From assembly GCA_024761205.1 (NCBI GenBank), contig JAMASS010000008.1, forward strand, positions 1 through 64,000: a DNA stretch of 64,000 nucleotides, written 5' to 3'. Under the pieces are notes generated by a model. The model saw nothing but the letters and a program-made list of their open reading frames with translations, was not told the DNA's origin and did no database searches. Shown piece by piece: positions 1-64,000 of the stretch (its first letter is position 1; every line of letters begins with the position of its first letter). Made by a program: the position numbers and the translations under genes. The DNA comes from Limisphaerales bacterium (GTDB lineage: Bacteria > Verrucomicrobiota > Verrucomicrobiia > Limisphaerales > AAA164-E04).

Positions 1-720
1 CCCCTTGATCGCCAAATCGCCCGTAACAATTTCAAAATTATTGAGCGCCCCATGAGATGTCGCGAGGTTTTGGAGCGCGGCTGCGCCACTTTAGCTTCCC
101 CTAGGCGAGTGAGAACCACCCCAGGGCCATCGGGATAAGGGTGATGGTCCGGAGAAACGAGTGAGGGAGCGTCTCAACATCAAATGATAGATTGAATAGG
201 AGGTGCGTGCCGCTCGGAATGGCCTGTTACTAGCTGTGATGCCGTCAGCGGCGGTCAGCGGGACGGCGCCTCCGTCTCTGGTGATTCCGGTGGCGAAGAT
301 GAGGGCGTGATGGATCTCTTGGGCAACGAGTTCTTCGGGCCAGATCAGCTCCGACAACAGGCCGAAGCTGGACGCTCGCGCGCCGAGCCCTTTTTCTTAG
401 ATGTCATTGTCAGCAAGGCTCATGGCGTTTCGCCAGCTGGCGATCTAATGATCGCCGATTCGTCGTGCTTGCCAGAGATCAAAATGACATTGGCCCGAAG
501 TGTTGATGATGGACTGTGCTCGTCGTTTTGCGGATCGGACAGGGCGAGCAGGGAATTAGGACGCCTTTCAGGAGGGTGCGGGGCGCCCAGTCCGCCCGCG
601 AGAGGGGATGGTGATCTTTGGCGTGTCAGCGGTCACTTGGTAGACGGGAATGGACCATTGGTTGAGATTCATAATATAAGCCATGATTTTGACCGAGGTG
701 GCTAGGCTCTCGATGATAGC
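1..720 (-). pseudogene. Decayed secreted-protein gene, running off the window edge
   Basis: On the minus strand, protein-like stretches occur in changing frames with stops between them. Readable pieces are SELIWPEELVAQEIHHALIF at about 298-357, ATGITRDGGAVPLTAADG just after it, and LQNLATSHGALNNFEIVTGD at about 20-80, which continues beyond base 1. At about 640-720 there is a peptide reading IMAYIMNLNQWSIPVYQVTA. The pieces are collinear, so this looks like one gene broken by several frameshifts. I do not recognise the product; the peptide style suggests a large secreted enzyme-like protein. No intact alternative ORF fits. Confidence 0.5.
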
Positions 721-1098
721 GTCGGAATTGGAGTCGAGAGCGCGGGGTTTTTTGGGATGGGGTTGGTGTCAGATGCTGTCCGGTACGTAGAGAGGGCTCG
801 GGCGTTGGATTTCTTCGGGTTTCTGGGCGTGGGTTTGGTGGACTGCAAGTGAAAGGAAAAAGGCTTACGGTTAGAGAGGCAGTGCTCTCCGTGTATGGAG
901 GTTTGTTGACTCTGTTGGTTTTCATTTTGAGAATTGTCGGATTGGTCGGATATGACTAATTGCTTACAGTGGCTCTGCGACTGGCTCCGCTTGCCAGACG
1001 GACGCTCGCCGGATCGACCGCTTTGTCGCAAGGCGAACGCTAATTTAGCACTGCATTGGGGTTGCTAAGGCTCCGGAAACTGCTTAGATTGGAACGGT
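721..1098. other. Intergenic stretch upstream of the DUF1080 gene
   Basis: No coding signal is convincing here. Short ORFs on the minus strand are low-complexity (Ser/Pro/Arg rich) and have no ribosome binding site. The last 60 bases are the 5' leader of the DUF1080 lipoprotein gene. No clear promoter consensus or terminator was seen. Confidence 0.5.
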
Positions 1099-1878
1099 AT
1101 GAGTCGCACGAGGAGTCGTAGACATCACGCACGTCAGGGAAGTCTGGTGGTTGCGGTTGGTTTGGTGTTGCTGTGGGGTTGTGTGACGCCTGTGCCAGAG
1201 CCGCGGCCGGTGACCACCGTCACCTTACCCCAGTACGTGCAGCCGTTTAATGGGGTTGATCTTGGGGGGTGGCGTCGGCCAGTCGGGAACTGGATGGTTG
1301 TGGAGTCTGCGGAAGCGGATGCCTTTGATCAGACGAAACTACTCCTGACAGAAGGTACTGGCGTGCTGGTCAATGGGACAGAGGGGAAAACGTCGAACCT
1401 CCTTACAGTAATGGAACACGGGGACGCGGAAATACATCTCGAATTCTTAGTACCCAGGAATTCAAACTCCGGAGTCTACCTGCAAGGACGCTATGAGTTG
1501 CAAATCCTCGATAGCTGGGGGAACTATGAGCCGACCTTTGGCGATTGCGGTGGCATCTATGAGCGTTGGGCGAATGGGAAAGGATTTGAAGGACGGAGAC
1601 CTCGGGTTAATGCTTCACTCCCATCGGGTAATTGGCAGCGATTTGACATCACTTTTCGAGCCCCGCGTTTTGATGTAACGGGCCGAAAGATCGAGAATGC
1701 ACGATTCATCAAAGTGGTGCACAATGGTGTGACGATCCATGAGAATGTTGAGGTCACCGGTCCGACACGGTCAGCTCCATTCGATGATGAACAACCCTGG
1801 GGACCTCTTATGCTGCAAGGAGATCATGGCCCGGTTGCCTACCAGAATATGTTAATCCGGCACTTGTATCTCCCCTAA
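1099..1878 (+). CDS. DUF1080 (3-keto-disaccharide hydrolase-like) lipoprotein
   Basis: A 259-residue exported protein. The N-terminus has a basic region, a hydrophobic stretch (about residues 15-27) and a lipobox-like LLWGC, so it is probably a lipoprotein anchored at Cys28. The rest is one DUF1080 concanavalin-like domain: GGWRRPVGNWMVVES near the start, RNSNSGVYLQGRYELQILDS in the middle, and DDEQPWGPLMLQGDHGPVAY near the end. These are hallmark segments of the family, which in PVC bacteria is linked to glycoside binding or hydrolysis (3-keto-glycoside hydrolases). The substrate cannot be read from sequence. It lies about 70 bases upstream of the membrane/coiled-coil gene and MoxR on the same strand and could be cotranscribed with them. 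Confidence 0.85.
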   Translation: MSRTRSRRHHARQGSLVVAVGLVLLWGCVTPVPEPRPVTTVTLPQYVQPFNGVDLGGWRRPVGNWMVVESAEADAFDQTKLLLTEGTGVLVNGTEGKTSNLLTVMEHGDAEIHLEFLVPRNSNSGVYLQGRYELQILDSWGNYEPTFGDCGGIYERWANGKGFEGRRPRVNASLPSGNWQRFDITFRAPRFDVTGRKIENARFIKVVHNGVTIHENVEVTGPTRSAPFDDEQPWGPLMLQGDHGPVAYQNMLIRHLYLP

Positions 1879-1948
1879 TAGGCGGATTCCGTGGGCGTTG
1901 ATGTAACAGAACGGTCTGTGTTTGGTCTAACCAGAAGAGAGCAAAGTA

Positions 1949-3880
1949 ATGAGTGATCTAGAAGCCATTCGATCGGTATTGGACAAGGCGGCTCGACGCC
2001 GTCGGTGGGTGCGGGCTTGGAACGGTCTGTTCAGCGGTCTTTTTATCGCTGCCCTAGTCTGGTTGCTGGTGATCGTGAAGTTTAAGTTACTTCCGCTTCC
2101 CTTTGGAACGTTGGGCGGGGCGGGGATACTCGCGGTGCTCTTGGTGGTTGGCGGTTTTGTCTGGGGGCTGTGGCGCAAAGATTCTTGGTTGGAGACCGCT
2201 CGGTGGTTGGATTATAAGCTAGGGTTTAAAGAACGGCTGAGTGCGGCCATTGAGTTTTCGCGGTCGCCGGGTCCCTGGGGAGATGTGCTCCTGCGGGATG
2301 GCGCCAAATGTGTGGCCAAGATTCAAGCAAATCAACTCTTGCCATATCATCTGCCGAAAATTGCGCGTTGGACAGTCCTGTTACTTTTCGTGGGTGCCAC
2401 TCTGGGCTTTGTGCCCGAGTACCGAAGTCAAAAATATCTGGACGCTCAACGAGAGCAGGCAGTCATTAAGGAGACCGGGCAGCAGTTAGAAAGTTTCGCC
2501 CAACGATCGCTTCAGCAGAGACCGCCCAAAATGAAGCCGACCGAGAAAGCAATGGTGTCAGTGGAGGAATTGGGTGAGCAGCTGCAGAGCGCCAAGTTGA
2601 CGCGGGCTGATGCCTTGGAGAAAATCGCCAGCGTGACCCAGAAACTCAAGGCAGAGGCGAAGGATCTGAATGAAAACCCTGCTTTCAAGCGTTTGCGGCA
2701 GGCCGCCCGGACGCCGCCAAACGCCTCTTCCAGCAGTGCAGCATCGCTGCAGAAGAAAATCCAGGCACTGCAACAGCAGATGGCCGATAATTCAGGAGAT
2801 CCTGATACGCTCCAGAAGCTGAAGCATAAGATGAATCAATTGCAAAGTGCGGCGGCCAGTATGAATTCGAGTGAGATCGGAATGTCGCCGGAGATGAAAC
2901 AGCAAATGGCAAGCAGCATGGCCAGCCTGGCTCAAATGGCGCAGCAGCAAGGCGTTTCGTTGCCGGACTTGGAGGATGCGATTTCGGCCCTGCAGTATGG
3001 CGAGGTCGATCAATTTCTCAAAGCGCTCGATTCGGCGCAGATCGACCTGGACAAGATGCTGGAGATGGCCAAGGCGATGAAGAAAATGCAGATGGAAATG
3101 GCCGAGTTGGGGCGTGATTTGGGTGAGCAATTGGAAAAGGGGCAGGCACAGGCCGCCCACGAACGATTGCTAGACATGATCCGAAAGTTGCAGTCTGGAT
3201 CACTGGATTCCGGAGAACTGCAGAAACTAGCGGATGAAGTGAGCAGGGCCCTGGATCCAGCGGGAGATTACGGTGCGGTACGCAAGCATTTGGAGCAGGC
3301 GCTACAACAATGCCAGGGTGGGAATCTGAGGAAGGGTGCGCAATCATTACAATCGGCCGCCGACGAACTGAAACGACTCATGGGACAATTTGGTGATGTG
3401 CAATCGCTCATGGCTAGCTTGGACGCCTTGCAGAAGGCTCAGATGTGTGTGGGTAATTGCACGGGTTGGGGTATGGCAACCACCATGGCGGGCTTCAAAC
3501 CCGGCGGGAAACCCGGGAGAGGGGTTGGCACCTGGGCCGATGAAAACAATGGTTGGTTTTATTTTCCAGAGACGGGACGTTGGAACAATTCTGGCATTGT
3601 CCAACCGGAGTTGGAGCCACGGGGACATACGGACCGTGGCGAAGGAGACGGCTTGGCAGGGATGATTCCCACCAAGATTCGGGGCCGATTCACACCCGGC
3701 GGCCCGATGCCAAGCATCACCTTGCAGGGGGTGAGCATCAAAGGGGAGAGCCGGATGGTCAATATTGAGGAGGCCATTGCGACGGCACAAGACGAAGCCC
3801 AGAGCGCACTCAGCCAGCAGAAGATCCCCCGTGCCTACCAGCAAGCGGTTCGAAGCTATTTTGACGACATGAGCCAATAG
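1949..3880 (+). CDS. Membrane-anchored coiled-coil protein, MoxR partner, function unknown
   Basis: 643 residues. Two hydrophobic segments lie at about 24-43 and 54-76 and a third at about 139-156, giving an N-terminal membrane domain. Residues about 170-500 are Gln/Ala/Met/Leu/Lys-rich with heptad-like spacing, a long coiled coil with many KMxxM and QQM steps. The C-terminal part has a Gly-rich segment with TWADENNGWFYFPETGRW and then a globular tail. It precedes a MoxR ATPase by 32 bases, and long membrane proteins of this kind are common next to MoxR genes. It may therefore be a target or scaffold of the MoxR chaperone. That is inference from context; I cannot name a family. The coiled-coil repeats make the reading frame certain. 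Confidence 0.8.
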   Translation: MSDLEAIRSVLDKAARRRRWVRAWNGLFSGLFIAALVWLLVIVKFKLLPLPFGTLGGAGILAVLLVVGGFVWGLWRKDSWLETARWLDYKLGFKERLSAAIEFSRSPGPWGDVLLRDGAKCVAKIQANQLLPYHLPKIARWTVLLLFVGATLGFVPEYRSQKYLDAQREQAVIKETGQQLESFAQRSLQQRPPKMKPTEKAMVSVEELGEQLQSAKLTRADALEKIASVTQKLKAEAKDLNENPAFKRLRQAARTPPNASSSSAASLQKKIQALQQQMADNSGDPDTLQKLKHKMNQLQSAAASMNSSEIGMSPEMKQQMASSMASLAQMAQQQGVSLPDLEDAISALQYGEVDQFLKALDSAQIDLDKMLEMAKAMKKMQMEMAELGRDLGEQLEKGQAQAAHERLLDMIRKLQSGSLDSGELQKLADEVSRALDPAGDYGAVRKHLEQALQQCQGGNLRKGAQSLQSAADELKRLMGQFGDVQSLMASLDALQKAQMCVGNCTGWGMATTMAGFKPGGKPGRGVGTWADENNGWFYFPETGRWNNSGIVQPELEPRGHTDRGEGDGLAGMIPTKIRGRFTPGGPMPSITLQGVSIKGESRMVNIEEAIATAQDEAQSALSQQKIPRAYQQAVRSYFDDMSQ

Positions 3881-5358: not shown

Positions 5359-5844
5359 GTCGTGAGTATTTAACCGTGGCAGTCATTTTTCAATGCAGAT
5401 TATCATCTCACAGCGATACCTCTACGCTTTGGTCTTTAGTTCATCAATTCCCAGCATCTAAGCCGTAGATTGCGAGGGCCTTATTCGCAGAAATTCCCGC
5501 TGACTCGAATTTTGCTAGGGATGGATGAGGCAGCGTTGGCTTTTCTCGGGTTGCTTTTCAAGCGTACTCAATTGCAAACGTAGTTTACGAAAACCCTTTT
5601 CAGATGCTTCCCCCCCCCAATACCTCTCCTCCTTTCCTTCCAACGGGAATCGCTGTAACCCCACCATAGGCTAGACTTACCAGGAGATTCTGGATAAAAT
5701 GAGAATAAAAGCGTCTTAAAGCGATTAGAGGTATCGATTTTCAATAAGTGGAAATCCTGAAACAGGCTAAGCAGCAAAAGAATGGAAGACAATTTAGGTC
5801 ACATCCAAATCGTAATTTATCTTAATGTTCGATGAGAAGAAATC
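5359..5844. other. Intergenic region before the restriction-modification island
   Basis: No gene is supported. The stretch contains the upstream copy of a 60-bp direct repeat (5487-5546), a run of nine C (5610-5618), and then a sharp change to AT-rich sequence leading into the endonuclease gene. The likely promoter of the endonuclease lies in the AT-rich 5690-5840 part, but no clear consensus could be assigned. Confidence 0.5.
5487..5546 (+). repeat. Direct repeat, left copy flanking the RM island
   Basis: This 60-bp segment aligns without gaps to 8110-8169 with 48 identical positions out of 60 by my hand count. Its first 29 bases differ at only two positions. Most differences are transitions. 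The two copies bracket the endonuclease and methyltransferase genes. Confidence 0.75.
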
Positions 5845-6516
5845 ATGGATCAAAAATCGATATCTCAACAGGTTGAAGAAAAAGTTTCAGATCTCTTTGA
5901 AGAACTCCGCTCAGGAATATCCGAAAGAGAAGATTCTCGCGCCTTCGGAGCGATGATAGAAAAGCGGATTACTGACAACTGGAAGCACATTTGCAGTGAT
6001 TTGGGATATGTTCCACTTGATCGCCCAGGGAGAAGGACCATCTTCGATTTCGCATTTCAGAATGGGAATCAAGTTGTCGGAATTGATGTAAAAACCAAAG
6101 ACCTAGACTCCACAAGGTATTCTGATGGGGGAATCTGTGCGGTAGGTAATCTTTTGAAATATCTTGCCAACGACAACGGCATTTTTTTGATTGCTGAATT
6201 CGGTCATAATAAGGCTTCAGATAGAACTGGACGACGAGATATTGAATATATTCGAGTAGCTCCATTTATAATGTTACCACAAAATGCATACAGAATTGAA
6301 AATCTTGGAACAGGCCAGATCAGATTAAATTACACGCTTAACCAAATATGGGATGAAATCGAGTGGGATCGTGAACTTGCCAGATTCTATGATCTTTTCA
6401 TTAACTTAGCTATCACTCACTATCGACGAGTTAGTGGGGATGCTATTAAACGAGTCAAAGCACTAGAGAGGTTTAAAGCTAATGGTTACCAACACTTTAG
6501 TTTTGGGAAAGGTTAA
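5845..6516 (+). CDS. Type II restriction endonuclease (PD-(D/E)XK)
   Basis: 223 residues. A candidate PD-(D/E)XK core is visible: an acidic residue in RRTIFDFAF (D68) and, after a short strand, GIDVKTKD (D81-x-K83). The following AEFGHNK segment fits a core beta-strand. The gene is AT-rich compared with its neighbours and its last 35 bases overlap an N6-adenine methyltransferase gene, which is the main evidence for its role. Together they form a Type II restriction-modification pair. The start is supported by a purine-rich GATGAGAAG just upstream of ATG. I cannot assign a named specificity, so the recognition site is unknown. Low GC content relative to the flanks suggests horizontal transfer. 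Confidence 0.75.
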   Translation: MDQKSISQQVEEKVSDLFEELRSGISEREDSRAFGAMIEKRITDNWKHICSDLGYVPLDRPGRRTIFDFAFQNGNQVVGIDVKTKDLDSTRYSDGGICAVGNLLKYLANDNGIFLIAEFGHNKASDRTGRRDIEYIRVAPFIMLPQNAYRIENLGTGQIRLNYTLNQIWDEIEWDRELARFYDLFINLAITHYRRVSGDAIKRVKALERFKANGYQHFSFGKG

Positions 6517-8032
6517 GATTGGGGAGATATTTACACCCATCTCATGGGCTCAATGGCTTCTTGATCGTTGGAATGTGTTCGATCGTTGGACAGAAGGAGA
6601 ATCGGTTTGCGATCCTACTGCTGGAACAGGGATTTTTGCAAAAGCACTGATTGCTAAGGCAGTGAGATTAAGAATGCACATCTCGGAAGAAATGCTGGGA
6701 CGCTTGCATATTGTTGAGTTAAAAAACGACCACCTTAGAAACTTCTCGAATAATGTTAGAGAAGAGTTGGGTATATCGTTTCCATCTACATCGCTACATC
6801 AAAGGGATATAATTACTCATCCGCTGGATAGAAAGTTCGATATCCTTGTTGGGAATCCGCCTTGGTCAAACTTTACTGATCTGCCCGATATATATAAAGA
6901 AATTCTAAAAATGTACTTTATAGAATACGGATTGGTCCCTAATCGTAAAGCAGTTCTGCTAGGCTCGTCACGAACCGATATAGCAGCTTTAGTGCTAAAA
7001 GTCGTTCTTCAGAATATGCTAAAGGACAATGGGGACGGTTATTTTTATACACCATTATCGCTTTTTGCAGGCGATGATGCTCACATTGGATTTCGGGATT
7101 ACCGTTCAAAAACGATTCATTTTTCAGTAAAGGAAGTTTATGAATTTACTGGTGTAAAAATTTTTGGAGCAGTCAGAACCTCATATTGTGCTGTACATTT
7201 CAAACGGAACGTCAAACAAACATTTCCTGTATCGTATTACAGGGGCGATGGTAATCAGTCAATCAAATTCAAAGCTTATCCTCTTAAAAAAATATCTGAT
7301 CCGTGGAGGATTGTTGGATTAGATGAAAATGCTGAAGAATTAGATGCAATTCAGGTAAAGATTGGTTCACATCAAAAGCCGAGGCAGGGGGTGAATACAT
7401 GTGGAGCGAATTCAGTTTTTATTTTTGATTCGTTTCCAGATTTTATTGATCCTGAATATATATTCCCATTAGCATCTAAGGAGATTTGGCGTGAGAGAAT
7501 TCTTTCTCCTAAAAAGTGGATTTTCCTCCCTTATGAAATCGGTTCGAGTAGACCATTGTCTGAAAAGAGGATTCAGTCGGCACGGAGTTATGGTTACCTA
7601 TGCGGCCATAAGCGTAAACTAAAATCCAGGAAAGGCACGTTAATTAGAAGTGCAATAGATAAAGGTCTCTGGTGGTCTTTATTGGGAGTCGGCCCGTATT
7701 CTTTTGCGCCATATAAAGTGATGTGGGAAGCCTATGGCAAACATACGTTTTCACCTATGGTGCTTGGAGTTTACGATGGTAAGCCATGGCAAGCAAACCA
7801 AGCCATGCACGCATTTATCCCATGTTGGGAGCAAAAAGATGCGGAACGTATTTGCAAAGAGTTGAGTAGCCCTAGCATTTCACGGTTGCTCAGCGAGCTA
7901 AATGGTCAGGGAAAGTGCAATTTTGCACAGCCAGGCAAGATCAAGAAAATATTGCATCTCCCATATGGAAGTTCAGAGCAAATGCTTCTTTTGGAATCGA
8001 AATCAAGACAGCGAACAAGGCAGGGCAGATGA
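6482..8032 (+). CDS. N6-adenine DNA methyltransferase (Type II, NPPW)
   Basis: 516 residues. The SAM-binding motif I is DPTAGTGIF (about 44-52). The catalytic motif IV is NPPW (125-128) in FDILVGNPPW, which marks an adenine-N6 amino-methyltransferase of the gamma-like, TaqI/Eco57I-related class. The long C-terminal half probably holds the target recognition domain. The start overlaps the endonuclease end by 35 bases, with an AGAGAGG about 9 bases before the ATG, so translation is likely coupled. It should protect host DNA from the upstream nuclease. The gene is AT-rich, matching its partner and unlike the flanking DNA, consistent with acquisition of both genes together. Confidence 0.88.
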   Translation: MVTNTLVLGKVKIGEIFTPISWAQWLLDRWNVFDRWTEGESVCDPTAGTGIFAKALIAKAVRLRMHISEEMLGRLHIVELKNDHLRNFSNNVREELGISFPSTSLHQRDIITHPLDRKFDILVGNPPWSNFTDLPDIYKEILKMYFIEYGLVPNRKAVLLGSSRTDIAALVLKVVLQNMLKDNGDGYFYTPLSLFAGDDAHIGFRDYRSKTIHFSVKEVYEFTGVKIFGAVRTSYCAVHFKRNVKQTFPVSYYRGDGNQSIKFKAYPLKKISDPWRIVGLDENAEELDAIQVKIGSHQKPRQGVNTCGANSVFIFDSFPDFIDPEYIFPLASKEIWRERILSPKKWIFLPYEIGSSRPLSEKRIQSARSYGYLCGHKRKLKSRKGTLIRSAIDKGLWWSLLGVGPYSFAPYKVMWEAYGKHTFSPMVLGVYDGKPWQANQAMHAFIPCWEQKDAERICKELSSPSISRLLSELNGQGKCNFAQPGKIKKILHLPYGSSEQMLLLESKSRQRTRQGR

Positions 8033-8531
8033 CACGAGATGCTACTGCACGTGTTTGGCCTCACATTCTGTGTGAAATTGGAAAGAAAATTACCCCATGT
8101 GTGGGCTCAGCAGAAATTCCTGCTGGCTCGAATTTTGCCGGAGGTAAATGTGGGAACGTTTGCTTTTCTTGAGGCGAGCGAACCTGTGGCGACGTGAATC
8201 ACGCGTTTAAAATGGGTCTCCGCTTCTCTGAAAATTGCGTTTGAGTGAAACTTTGATTACAGACTACTCAGGAGGTTTTCGGGACTTCCAATTGCACCTC
8301 AAACCCTTGGCAATTCCAAAATTCAATCCTAAGGACTTTCCACATGAATCGATTGGTTGAACACTTTTGATGGCTCTATCCGTCGCCTATTGCTGTGTCG
8401 TTGAACGTGGAATTCGTCTGCCAATGCTATCGGTTGGCAGAATAGTCTGACAGCGGTTATATATTCGATTGCGTTCATTGTGCTTTCGGGAGCGATCTTT
8501 CAAAAGACAAAAAAGCCATTGCCAAAATAGT
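8033..8531. other. Intergenic tract with a possible membrane-protein remnant
   Basis: It contains the right copy of the island-flanking repeat (8110-8169). At about 8410-8531 on the plus strand there is a short protein-like tail reading WQNSLTAVIYSIAFIVLSGA and ending in basic residues at a TAG, which could be the last transmembrane segment of a lost gene. Upstream of it frames are interrupted. No intact gene is supported. Confidence 0.35.
8110..8169 (+). repeat. Direct repeat, right copy flanking the RM island
   Basis: Second copy of the 60-bp repeat found at 5487-5546, same orientation, no gaps, about 80 percent identical. It begins 78 bases after the methyltransferase stop codon. Confidence 0.75.
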
Positions 8532-61660: not shown

Positions 61661-61868
61661 ATGATAGTTTATTCGCTTCAGTGCGCCTTTTATGAGAAAG
61701 ATTTTGCCTTAGTTGTGGATGGCTTCAAACAACAGGTTTGAATCGATTGAGTGGCATTCTGGGCGAGGAAGGTTACAGGAAGTTTAAAACTAACATTTCT
61801 GCATTTTATATAATTCCTTTGGGGATTACATACTTGATGCCACAAGGGGAGGCTGTTTTCATAGAAAT

Positions 61869-62190
61869 TTAGGGGGTTAGCTGAGGGTAGCCGGCCCAGC
61901 AGGAGGCTTGGGCCATGGGCTTGCCGGTGAAGGGGTCGGCTAGCGGGGGGAGTTTGGGCATTTGCTGTTCCTCGAAGTATTCTTTCATGCTCCAGGCTTG
62001 GAGACGGGGATAGGTGTTGGGGGAGTCTATTCATGGGGGAAGGTGCCGGGTTCATCTTTGCTTCAATACGCCCCTCCGAGATGAGATGGTCTCTACGGTG
62101 ATGAGGATGCCTTGCGGCAGCTTTTTCTTTGCCGATGGTGTGGCAGAATGCCCGAATCTGGTCGGCTGGTAGATCGAATGCACTACCTCG
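61869..62190 (-). pseudogene. C-terminal remnant of an unknown gene
   Basis: A frame from about 62180 reads FDLPADQIRAFCHTIGKEKA and continues to about 62035, where the frame changes to PNTYPRLQAWSMKEYFEEQQ, MPKLPPLADPFTGKPMAQAS and ends CWAGYPQLTP at a TAA (61869-61871). The two frames join smoothly, so this looks like the last hundred codons of one gene with a frameshift. The protein family is not recognised. The pieces are too conserved in style to be chance. Confidence 0.5.
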
Positions 62191-62234
62191 ACATTGCCCC
62201 CGGCGGCTTCCGGGCTTCGATGGCCATGTGGCCT

Positions 62235-63053
62235 CTACAAAGGTTCGAGTTTTCCCCGCAAGGCATTCTCAAACTCGCGGCGTTTCACTGTTTCGGCAGA
62301 CAGCAGCTTGTCGCACGAATCTTCAAGTGACAGCACTTCCCAATGGTGAGATTCCAGCCGGTAGCCCGCAGTGATTCGAGGGATGAGCCAGACAATATCA
62401 CCATCGTTCAAGTCGTGGGAGGAGTCGTCCGACGGGCCGCCGATCGACTCGAAAAACGGGAGATCGACAGCCACCGCCAATTTGCTCCCCCAGCGGCGAA
62501 GCGTAGGGGCTTTCACCTGTAACTGTGGCATGAGGCGCTTCGCGCTGGATGATCGCCAGTCAGGACGCCTTACGGCATTTGGCGTCGGTGGAATTTGTGC
62601 GCTAGAGGCAAGAAGCCGTCTGAACTCCGACTCCATCCCCGGCCCAGAGAAGTAGACCGCCTGAATTTCCAGTCCGTACCAGCTTGAGGCGGCCTCGTCG
62701 CCAGACACCACCAAGTCGATACGCCCCGCCGGCCGGCCGGTTGTCGTCGACCGCATGAACGGCACTTCACGCGCCACGTAGGGATTGGAGAACCCGACGA
62801 TACGCCCAAGCCATCGGGAGATCAGGTTGCCTTCATCGAACCGTCGCGGGCAGGTGATGATAGGCGGCCTGTTCGGCGCCCCAATGGAACATACGCCGCC
62901 CCTCTTGCCGCAGGGAGGAGTTCCCGGCTGGAACGGACAAGGGAGAGGGTCGGTTTGCTTCAGCGCGGCCCTAGCCATCCGCTGTCGTCGCGGAACCGAC
63001 AGCGAGCCAAAAGGCTCGCCGTACCATTCGGCAATCCCGTGCCGACCAGTCAT
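62235..63053 (-). CDS. NotI-family restriction endonuclease
   Basis: 272 residues from ATG 63053 (MTGRHGIAEWYGEPF), which overlaps the upstream methyltransferase stop by four bases (ATGA). The iron-binding Cys set fits NotI: C39, C48, C55 and C68 in DPLPCPFQPGTPPCGKRGG, GGVCSIG and ITCPRRF. The PD-(D/E)XK core residues match those of NotI: Glu in REVPF (E96), Asp in GRIDLVV (D113), and Glu-x-Gln in GLEIQAVYFSG (E129, Q131). NotI itself cuts GCGGCCGC; the target of this homologue is unknown. It is translationally coupled to a D12 adenine methyltransferase. Length is somewhat shorter than NotI. Confidence 0.88.
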   Translation of the reverse strand: MTGRHGIAEWYGEPFGSLSVPRRQRMARAALKQTDPLPCPFQPGTPPCGKRGGVCSIGAPNRPPIITCPRRFDEGNLISRWLGRIVGFSNPYVAREVPFMRSTTTGRPAGRIDLVVSGDEAASSWYGLEIQAVYFSGPGMESEFRRLLASSAQIPPTPNAVRRPDWRSSSAKRLMPQLQVKAPTLRRWGSKLAVAVDLPFFESIGGPSDDSSHDLNDGDIVWLIPRITAGYRLESHHWEVLSLEDSCDKLLSAETVKRREFENALRGKLEPL

Positions 63054-63934
63054 GCGAACAACGGCTCGCCGGTAATAACTAGTTCGGACAACCGGTTGTG
63101 ATGCGTGTTCTTCATCGAAAGGGAGGCGGCGTTGAAGTCGTGTCGGCGCACCAGCTCTACGATCTCCGGAGCCGCGTCGTAGGTCATCAGGAAGTTGGAG
63201 TCGCAATCGGCCAGCGCTTGGAACAGCGCGCCGTGGTCGATCTCCGAATGCACATAGAGCCGCGTCCCCGCACGCTTTCCGCCCTGCGCCGTATAAGGCG
63301 GGTCAAGGAATACAGCCGCCCGGCGCCCCCATCCCTCCAAAAGAATCGGAAGCAGTTTCAATCCGTCACCCTCAAAGAAAGCGATCCGATGCGCGTGTTC
63401 CCGTATCGCGTTGATCCGCGAGACCAGTGTTTCGGGGTACCAGCGAGACAGAAGCCCCTTGCCGTTCTCGCCACGCCGGCTGAACGACGCCCCCGGGGCG
63501 AGGATGCCGCCCCTACGCGTCCGGTTCAGAACGAGCGTCCGAAACCCGTGTTCCTCCACTGTGCGCGGCGTTTCATTCGCCAAGCGCCTCAAGTTTTCAT
63601 GCGTCGGCTCGAACTGCCTGATCCGCTCCCCAAGCGCGGCCCCGCTCTCCAAAGTGGTGTGCCAGAAAGCCGCCACGTCCCGGTCGATCTCGACTATCAC
63701 CGCGCGTGCAACGAGGTCTTCCAGGATCGCGGTTAGGGAGACGATTGCCCCTCCGGCGAACGGTTCAATCAGGATGTCCGGCCGCGTCTTTGCAAGCCAT
63801 TCCCTGATGTGCGGGATCAGCCATGTCTTGCCGCCGGGGTAGCGGAGGGGGCTGCGTTGCGGGACCGTCGCAACATTGACGACCGGGATTCGCGACGATG
63901 GGAAGGCTTCTGCTAGCGGCGCAACGGTGCTCAC
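63050..63934 (-). CDS. D12-class N6-adenine DNA methyltransferase
   Basis: 294 residues, GTG start. SAM-binding segments are LRYPGGKTWLIPHI (about residues 30-43) and IEPFAGGAIVSLTAIL (about 56-71), and the catalytic motif is DPPY (211-214) in FLDPPYTAQGGKRAGTRLYV. This is the Dam/MT-D12 order, motif X, I and then IV, so it methylates adenine N6. It overlaps the endonuclease start by four bases and the upstream partial gene stop by four bases (GTGA), forming a tight operon. The NotI site GCGGCCGC has no adenine, so an adenine enzyme implies a different recognition site here. Confidence 0.9.
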   Translation of the reverse strand: MSTVAPLAEAFPSSRIPVVNVATVPQRSPLRYPGGKTWLIPHIREWLAKTRPDILIEPFAGGAIVSLTAILEDLVARAVIVEIDRDVAAFWHTTLESGAALGERIRQFEPTHENLRRLANETPRTVEEHGFRTLVLNRTRRGGILAPGASFSRRGENGKGLLSRWYPETLVSRINAIREHAHRIAFFEGDGLKLLPILLEGWGRRAAVFLDPPYTAQGGKRAGTRLYVHSEIDHGALFQALADCDSNFLMTYDAAPEIVELVRRHDFNAASLSMKNTHHNRLSELVITGEPLFA

Positions 63935-64000
63935 GACTGCTCTACCAATGACAGGCCGTTGTCGGCAAAGAGTTCGAGATAGCGATCAAGATGCAGTTGG
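63931..64000 (-). CDS. Partial upstream gene of the NotI-like operon
   Basis: The last 22 codons of a gene that starts beyond the window: QLHLDRYLELFADNGLSLVE then QS and TGA. Its stop overlaps the GTG of the methyltransferase by four bases, so it is the first known member of the same coupled operon. Too short to name; a small controller or specificity protein would be possible. Confidence 0.45.
   Translation of the reverse strand, partial: QLHLDRYLELFADNGLSLVEQS

Follow-up and report, generated by a model that had tools for sequence, protein, structure and literature searches.

Results

Genes at the locus

The window, by which we mean the whole stretch of 64,000 nucleotides that was analysed, ends in a group of minus-strand genes. 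A NotI-family restriction endonuclease (62235..63053, 272 aa, ATG start) lies downstream of a D12-class N6-adenine DNA methylase (63050..63934, 294 aa, GTG start), and both genes are intact. Upstream of the methylase is a third open reading frame, of which only the 3' end (63931..64000) falls in the window. The contig continues past the window edge, and by following it upstream, as an earlier note on this DNA had proposed, we read the third frame whole: it has 80 aa and its own ATG (contig 63931-64173). The earlier note had also described 4-nt overlaps among the three frames, and these are present, with the methylase stop and the nuclease start sharing ATGA (63050..63053) and the third frame's stop and the methylase start sharing GTGA (63931..63934). 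A scan of genome contigs for relatives of the nuclease found 510 in all, and we examined the loci of the best 80. The overlaps are not due to chance, because 47 of these 80 loci have a 4-nt methylase-nuclease overlap and four (L059, L060, L099 and L104) have a 4-nt overlap between an upstream transposase gene and the methylase.

The nuclease matches the Pfam profile PF12183 (NotI) with 138 bits (E 4e-40), the cut-off being 22 bits. In alignments of 14 and of 43 relatives its four cysteines (C39, C48, C55 and C68) and the E, D and E-x-Q catalytic set of PD-(D/E)xK type (E96, D113, E129 and Q131) are invariant or nearly so. A PDB search with the single sequence found no NotI chain; a profile built from the 14 relatives reached NotI 3bvq with an E value of 7e-4. 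In that profile alignment the four-cysteine stretch (CPF / C-K / GVC / CP), a predicted iron site, is in register with NotI, and the E-x-Q and the D could be aligned to NotI through a bridging relative that is nearer to it. The AlphaFold2 model of the nuclease has a pLDDT of 94.6. Its sole clear Foldseek match is NotI (E 5e-8; the next match has 0.095), and VIA-align superposes it on NotI 3c25 over 258 residues with Z 17.7 and rmsd 4.3. The fold match and the conserved residues therefore bear out the earlier note, which had read the four cysteines and the catalytic residues as kept from NotI. The likeness to NotI consists of the predicted fold, the profile alignment of the cysteine region and the E-x-Q with its upstream D/E; the two enzymes are nevertheless only 15-16% identical in the structural alignment, and the nuclease has EIQAVYFSG where NotI has EIQTMDFHG. 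No match to the nuclease was found among viral contigs and phages.

The methylase matches PF02086 (D12) with 41.5 bits (E 2e-10; cut-off 22). Its PF-GG (58-62; motif I) and DPPY (D211-P-P-Y214) motifs are invariant in 32 relatives, and the solved structural relatives found for it are 7m6b, DpnM and Dam. The profile, the DPPY motif and the overlap agree with the earlier view that an adenine methyltransferase is tightly coupled to the nuclease, and the two are likely to be cognate. Judged from their sequences, they form a complete Type II restriction-modification (R-M) pair with predicted enzyme activities.

If the pair is cognate, it is reasonable to expect that its site contains adenine and hence differs from GCGGCCGC, the site of NotI, because the partner methylase is of the adenine class and the NotI site has no adenine. 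Palindrome avoidance pointed to no outstanding 8-mer in 864 kb of the window's own genome, 400 kb of a second genome of the genus (G493) and 691 kb of related loci. The lowest 6-mer in the own genome is CGATCG, at 0.75 of expectation (0.66 in the related loci and 0.90 in G493), and many palindromes are low.

Related loci

The earlier note had singled out the pairing of these two families as a point of interest. The pairing is not unusual, because public plasmids carry the same neighbours and a D12 gene adjoins the nuclease in 78 of the 80 loci (best 80 of 510 relatives). In 73 of the same 80 the methylase is upstream of the nuclease on the same strand. NCBI annotates a NotI-family gene next to a DNA adenine methylase on IncP-1, Aeromonas and Thermus plasmids, and further genomes from the phylum of the window have it too. 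The plasmid pairs (pEST4011, Variovorax, Aeromonas and Thermus brockianus) have the same two families side by side, with nucleases 32-37% and methylases 42-49% identical to those of the window. However, in these plasmids the nuclease precedes the methylase, so that a stop-start overlap from methylase to nuclease is absent, and the annotation shows no IS1595 transposase alongside the pair.

The relatives of the nuclease form two groups, an EVQT type that is closer to NotI and an AVYxSG type. EVQT-type nucleases are paired with cytosine-5 methylases (L008-L010; methylase class read from the sequences). AVYxSG nucleases mostly have D12 methylases and sometimes cytosine enzymes (pBN5, Sedimenticola and L132).

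One Opitutaceae chromosome (OX638348.1) has the R-M pair twice (L063 and L064, 2107-7193), in a 5.1-kb block whose two copies are 99.98% identical and which contains an ORF resembling a piece of a phage-type integrase. We rejected these duplicates as proof of movement by IS1595, since no IS1595 gene precedes the pair; another process therefore copied it there.

A homologous methylase-nuclease pair lies in the same-genus genome G493 (L041, G493:C1:1060000-1074000, at 6593-8344; also L114). It has no resident insertion sequence (IS) around it, its genes contain stops and frameshifts, and it apparently also has the ATGA overlap.

The pair in the window could be inactive and decaying in the same way, as this broken copy and the decayed IS around the window pair (see below) would suggest. 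We consider this unlikely, since both window genes are open and of full length and keep all of the invariant residues.

Transposase genes upstream of the pair

In ten of the 80 loci (best 80 of 510 relatives) an IS1595-family transposase gene, intact or degraded, is directly upstream of the methylase on the same strand (L056, L059, L060, L061, L069, L099, L100, L104, L105 and L110). Only three other loci have an IS1595 match elsewhere in their flanks. This makes 13 loci with a match, and in 10 of them the transposase is directly upstream, at most 63 nt from the methylase ORF or overlapping it. The overlap is GTGA in L059, L099 and L104 and ATGA in L060. A Pfam scan of four upstream transposases gave PF12762 in all four and PF12760 in three; those of L056 and L100 have both.

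Inverted repeats enclose the transposase, methylase and nuclease genes in L056 (23/24 bp) and L100 (25/25 bp). Those of L056, L100, L099, L059 and L105 are above the shuffled maximum, and that of L060 is marginal. The 3015-bp element of L056, in a Chloroflexi genome, is flanked by a perfect 8-bp target duplication (AATAGTAA, 8/8), as is that of L100 in an alphaproteobacterium (TTCCGGTT, 8/8); in L059 the duplication is 7/8. With their inverted repeats and target duplications, L056 and L100 are thus complete IS1595-type elements with R-M cargo. The position of the transposase, the inverted repeats and the target duplications together indicate that an IS1595-type element carries the R-M pair as passenger cargo.

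The association might also be incidental, R-M pairs and IS1595 copies both being common and merely adjacent. The window's genome has 42 matches to IS1595 transposases, and among the best 80 of 510 relatives the probe used detects no upstream IS1595 gene in most R-M loci (about 63 of 73). However, chance adjacency would not be expected to place the transposase in one position, directly upstream and on the same strand, in 10 of 13 loci with matches, to give 4-nt transposase-methylase overlaps in four, or to enclose all three genes in inverted repeats, with perfect 8-bp duplications in two loci that belong to different phyla. We therefore regard an incidental association as very unlikely. As most relatives lack the IS1595 gene, the link between the pair and the IS that we favour may be recurrent rather than ancestral, or it may have decayed.

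IS1595 elements with passenger genes are known as tIS, e.g. MTnSag1/tISSag10 and tISCpe8; they have 25-bp repeats, and both known tIS are described as mobilizable by conjugation, tISCpe8 also as a lincomycin-resistance element (PMC5704250). The R-M elements resemble them in the IS1595-family transposase, the terminal inverted repeats of about 25 bp, the target duplication and the internal passenger genes. They differ in their cargo, a Type II R-M pair that overlaps the transposase gene. There are general reports that R-M systems occur on IS and transposons (PMC4176335), and IS-linked movement of the PaeR7I R-M system was shown experimentally (PMC3031569). PaeR7I is similar in that an R-M system moves with insertion sequences, although mainly by co-integration with unrelated resident IS1 or IS5 copies, whereas the R-M genes described here are inside the IS, between its inverted repeats. 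In the literature, mostly outside subscription papers, we found no report of an IS1595 element with Type II R-M cargo.

The resident repeat and its junctions

In the window the pair sits inside a resident, decayed repeat. BLASTN against copies without R-M cargo shows that the left part of this resident IS1595-type repeat matches, that about 1835 bp then diverge (the R-M cassette, 62167..64000 in the window, minus strand) and that the right part (61821..62166, minus strand) is 96-99% identical to the copies L036, L038 and L039. The right part consists of the remnant of a DNA methylase C-terminus and the right end, with a terminal inverted repeat at 61819..61867 (minus strand; core ATTACATACTTGATGCC at 61825-61841). 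The left junction of the cassette is at about contig 64001/64002, just beyond the window.

The same genome (G000) has five IS1595-derived repeats with degraded transposase genes (L035, L036, L037, L038 and L039, on contigs C8, C34, C34, C37 and C78), four of which have the methylase C-terminal remnant. The resident elements elsewhere in the genome are about 1.5-1.7 kb long and have terminal repeats with the core ATTACATACTTGATGCC, one copy lacking the right end, and their transposase genes differ by frame-shifting gaps. A search for the repeat in three further genomes of the genus found no copy. In the cargo-less copies the left and right parts are about 200 bp apart, and this stretch reads as a degraded methylase C-terminus (EGYLL.EP..HTRKV.AQVKS...ADQIRAFCH) that has an intact homologous gene elsewhere in the genome (L046). 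As the cargo-less copies read through the right junction and are homologous to an intact gene, the cargo-less form looks older, and the R-M cassette would have arrived later.

In L046 (G000:C89:127000-135000) an intact gene encodes a 480-aa N6/N4 DNA methylase with an Mrr-like domain. Many short tandem repeats (CTGTCTGGCTGTC-like) follow one another just upstream of it, at 5412-5858, where part of the sequence is masked as N, and the gene is possibly phase-variable.

The left partner of the resident terminal repeat was not found for the window copy, and around the window operon itself we found only weak inverted-repeat pairs. The transposase gene of the window copy is not intact, a 102-aa ORF being followed by shifted frames. 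Having neither the left repeat nor an intact transposase, the window copy was classed as a derivative and not as a working tIS. The window's genome is a draft in which junctions at repeats can be misassembled, although the junction between IS and R-M cassette is unique to this copy.

The same genome also contains a larger IS1595-type element (L040, G000:C34:370500-374500, about 331-3122) with inverted repeats resembling the resident ones. Between its transposase and its right end are two cargo ORFs resembling secreted or membrane proteins, the first of which begins like the third ORF of the window (59% identical over 37 residues).

The third open reading frame

The earlier note had suggested that the third gene could be a regulatory or specificity part. 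It is instead a chimeric remnant in which part of the resident IS1595 repeat is joined to what is probably the C-terminus of an IS1595 transposase. The genome encodes residues 1-59 five more times, at 93-97% identity and in every case with a stop after them, and there is no other NotI-family gene where these copies sit. Searches of Pfam, NCBIfam, PADLOC and the PDB with the third ORF gave no match. As a conserved gene it was rejected, its plasmid matches reaching only E 0.7 and its matches in 187 other genomes of the class being at chance level.

We compared the end of the ORF, anchored at the stop, with 4430 ORF ends. The transposase of L059 came first with 41/66 nt and that of L060 took the next value with 36/66 nt, the median being 18. 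By protein score with the same anchoring (4425 ORF ends), the L059 transposase was second and that of L060 fifth. From this ranking the last 20 or so codons are most likely the C-terminus of the cassette's own IS1595 transposase. The GTGA overlap with the methylase is the same as the transposase-methylase overlap in L059, L099 and L104, and is most likely that overlap preserved.

That the third ORF is functional, e.g. as a small protein for control or specificity that is produced together with the methylase, is hardly credible. In its favour, the frame is open, starts with an ATG of its own and shares GTGA with the methylase start. Against it, BLASTP with the whole ORF found no homologue beside the methylase in the 80 loci (best 80 of 510 relatives), the repeat that forms its first 59 residues has five more genome copies where there is no other NotI-family gene, and the ORF matches no family.

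Distribution across phyla

In the nuclease tree the window belongs to a supported clade of 16 rows (97*), which also includes rows from Chloroflexota, Rhodobacteraceae, other Pseudomonadota, Binatota and Opitutaceae. A larger clade contains ten named phyla (at least 10 phyla). The 12 phylum labels on the whole tree need 25 changes, the minimum being 11; the nuclease tree disagrees with taxonomy.

Most of the relatives' genomes appear to be those of sponge symbionts, although an enrichment there is an impression and not a statistic. MAGs named jk18x come from Ircinia sponges (PMC9531527), the name prefixes of other relatives fit sponge species of PMC8163846, and sponge-linked organism names among the relatives include Synechococcus spongiarum, Poriferisocius and Entotheonella. 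For the series SB06xx, OX638 and OY282 we infer a sponge origin. PMC8163846 reports enrichment and lateral transfer of R-M genes in sponge symbionts, with sponge Verrucomicrobiota largely lacking them. The window's genus includes an assembly named uncultured Verrucomicrobiae bacterium, and the window genome itself has the R-M pair.

Discussion

Taken together, these comparisons make it very probable that the R-M pair travelled as cargo of an IS1595-type element and that the window holds an intact pair stranded in a decayed resident IS. The D12 enzyme would methylate an adenine of the recognition site, and the NotI-like enzyme would cut this same site when unmethylated. In the IS1595-family element the genes are ordered transposase, methylase, nuclease, with short overlaps that may couple their translation, and the R-M-bearing elements have terminal inverted repeats of about 24-27 bp and 8-bp target duplications. 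Transposition probably helped the pair to spread across phyla, with other vehicles aiding its passage between cells. What the window holds is a piece of one such element (the transposase C-terminus, the methylase, the nuclease and 68 bp) that has replaced about 200 bp of the resident repeat, and the third ORF is an accidental in-frame fusion at the left junction of repeat and cassette. The window copy is presumably stranded and no longer mobile, since the left repeat and the transposase appear to have been lost.

A further-reaching possibility, which we regard as rather doubtful, is that one IS1595-type lineage with a built-in, coupled R-M pair has spread one NotI-like/adenine-methylase specificity through sponge microbiomes and stabilises itself there. 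If this were true, loss of the element would kill the cell, and the common methylation code of the carriers would filter foreign DNA and let DNA pass between symbionts.

The horizontal spread of R-M systems is known and the vehicle is usually guessed. An IS of about 3 kb, whose cargo besides a single transposase gene is the two R-M genes, is among the smallest possible vehicles. It can be read directly here, target duplications and inverted repeats included, and its relatives can be traced through at least ten phyla. The nuclease subfamily may be an untapped source of NotI-like enzymes with a putative adenine-containing, possibly rare site. The apparent concentration in sponge symbionts bears on the enrichment and lateral transfer of Type II R-M systems in these communities (PMC8163846).
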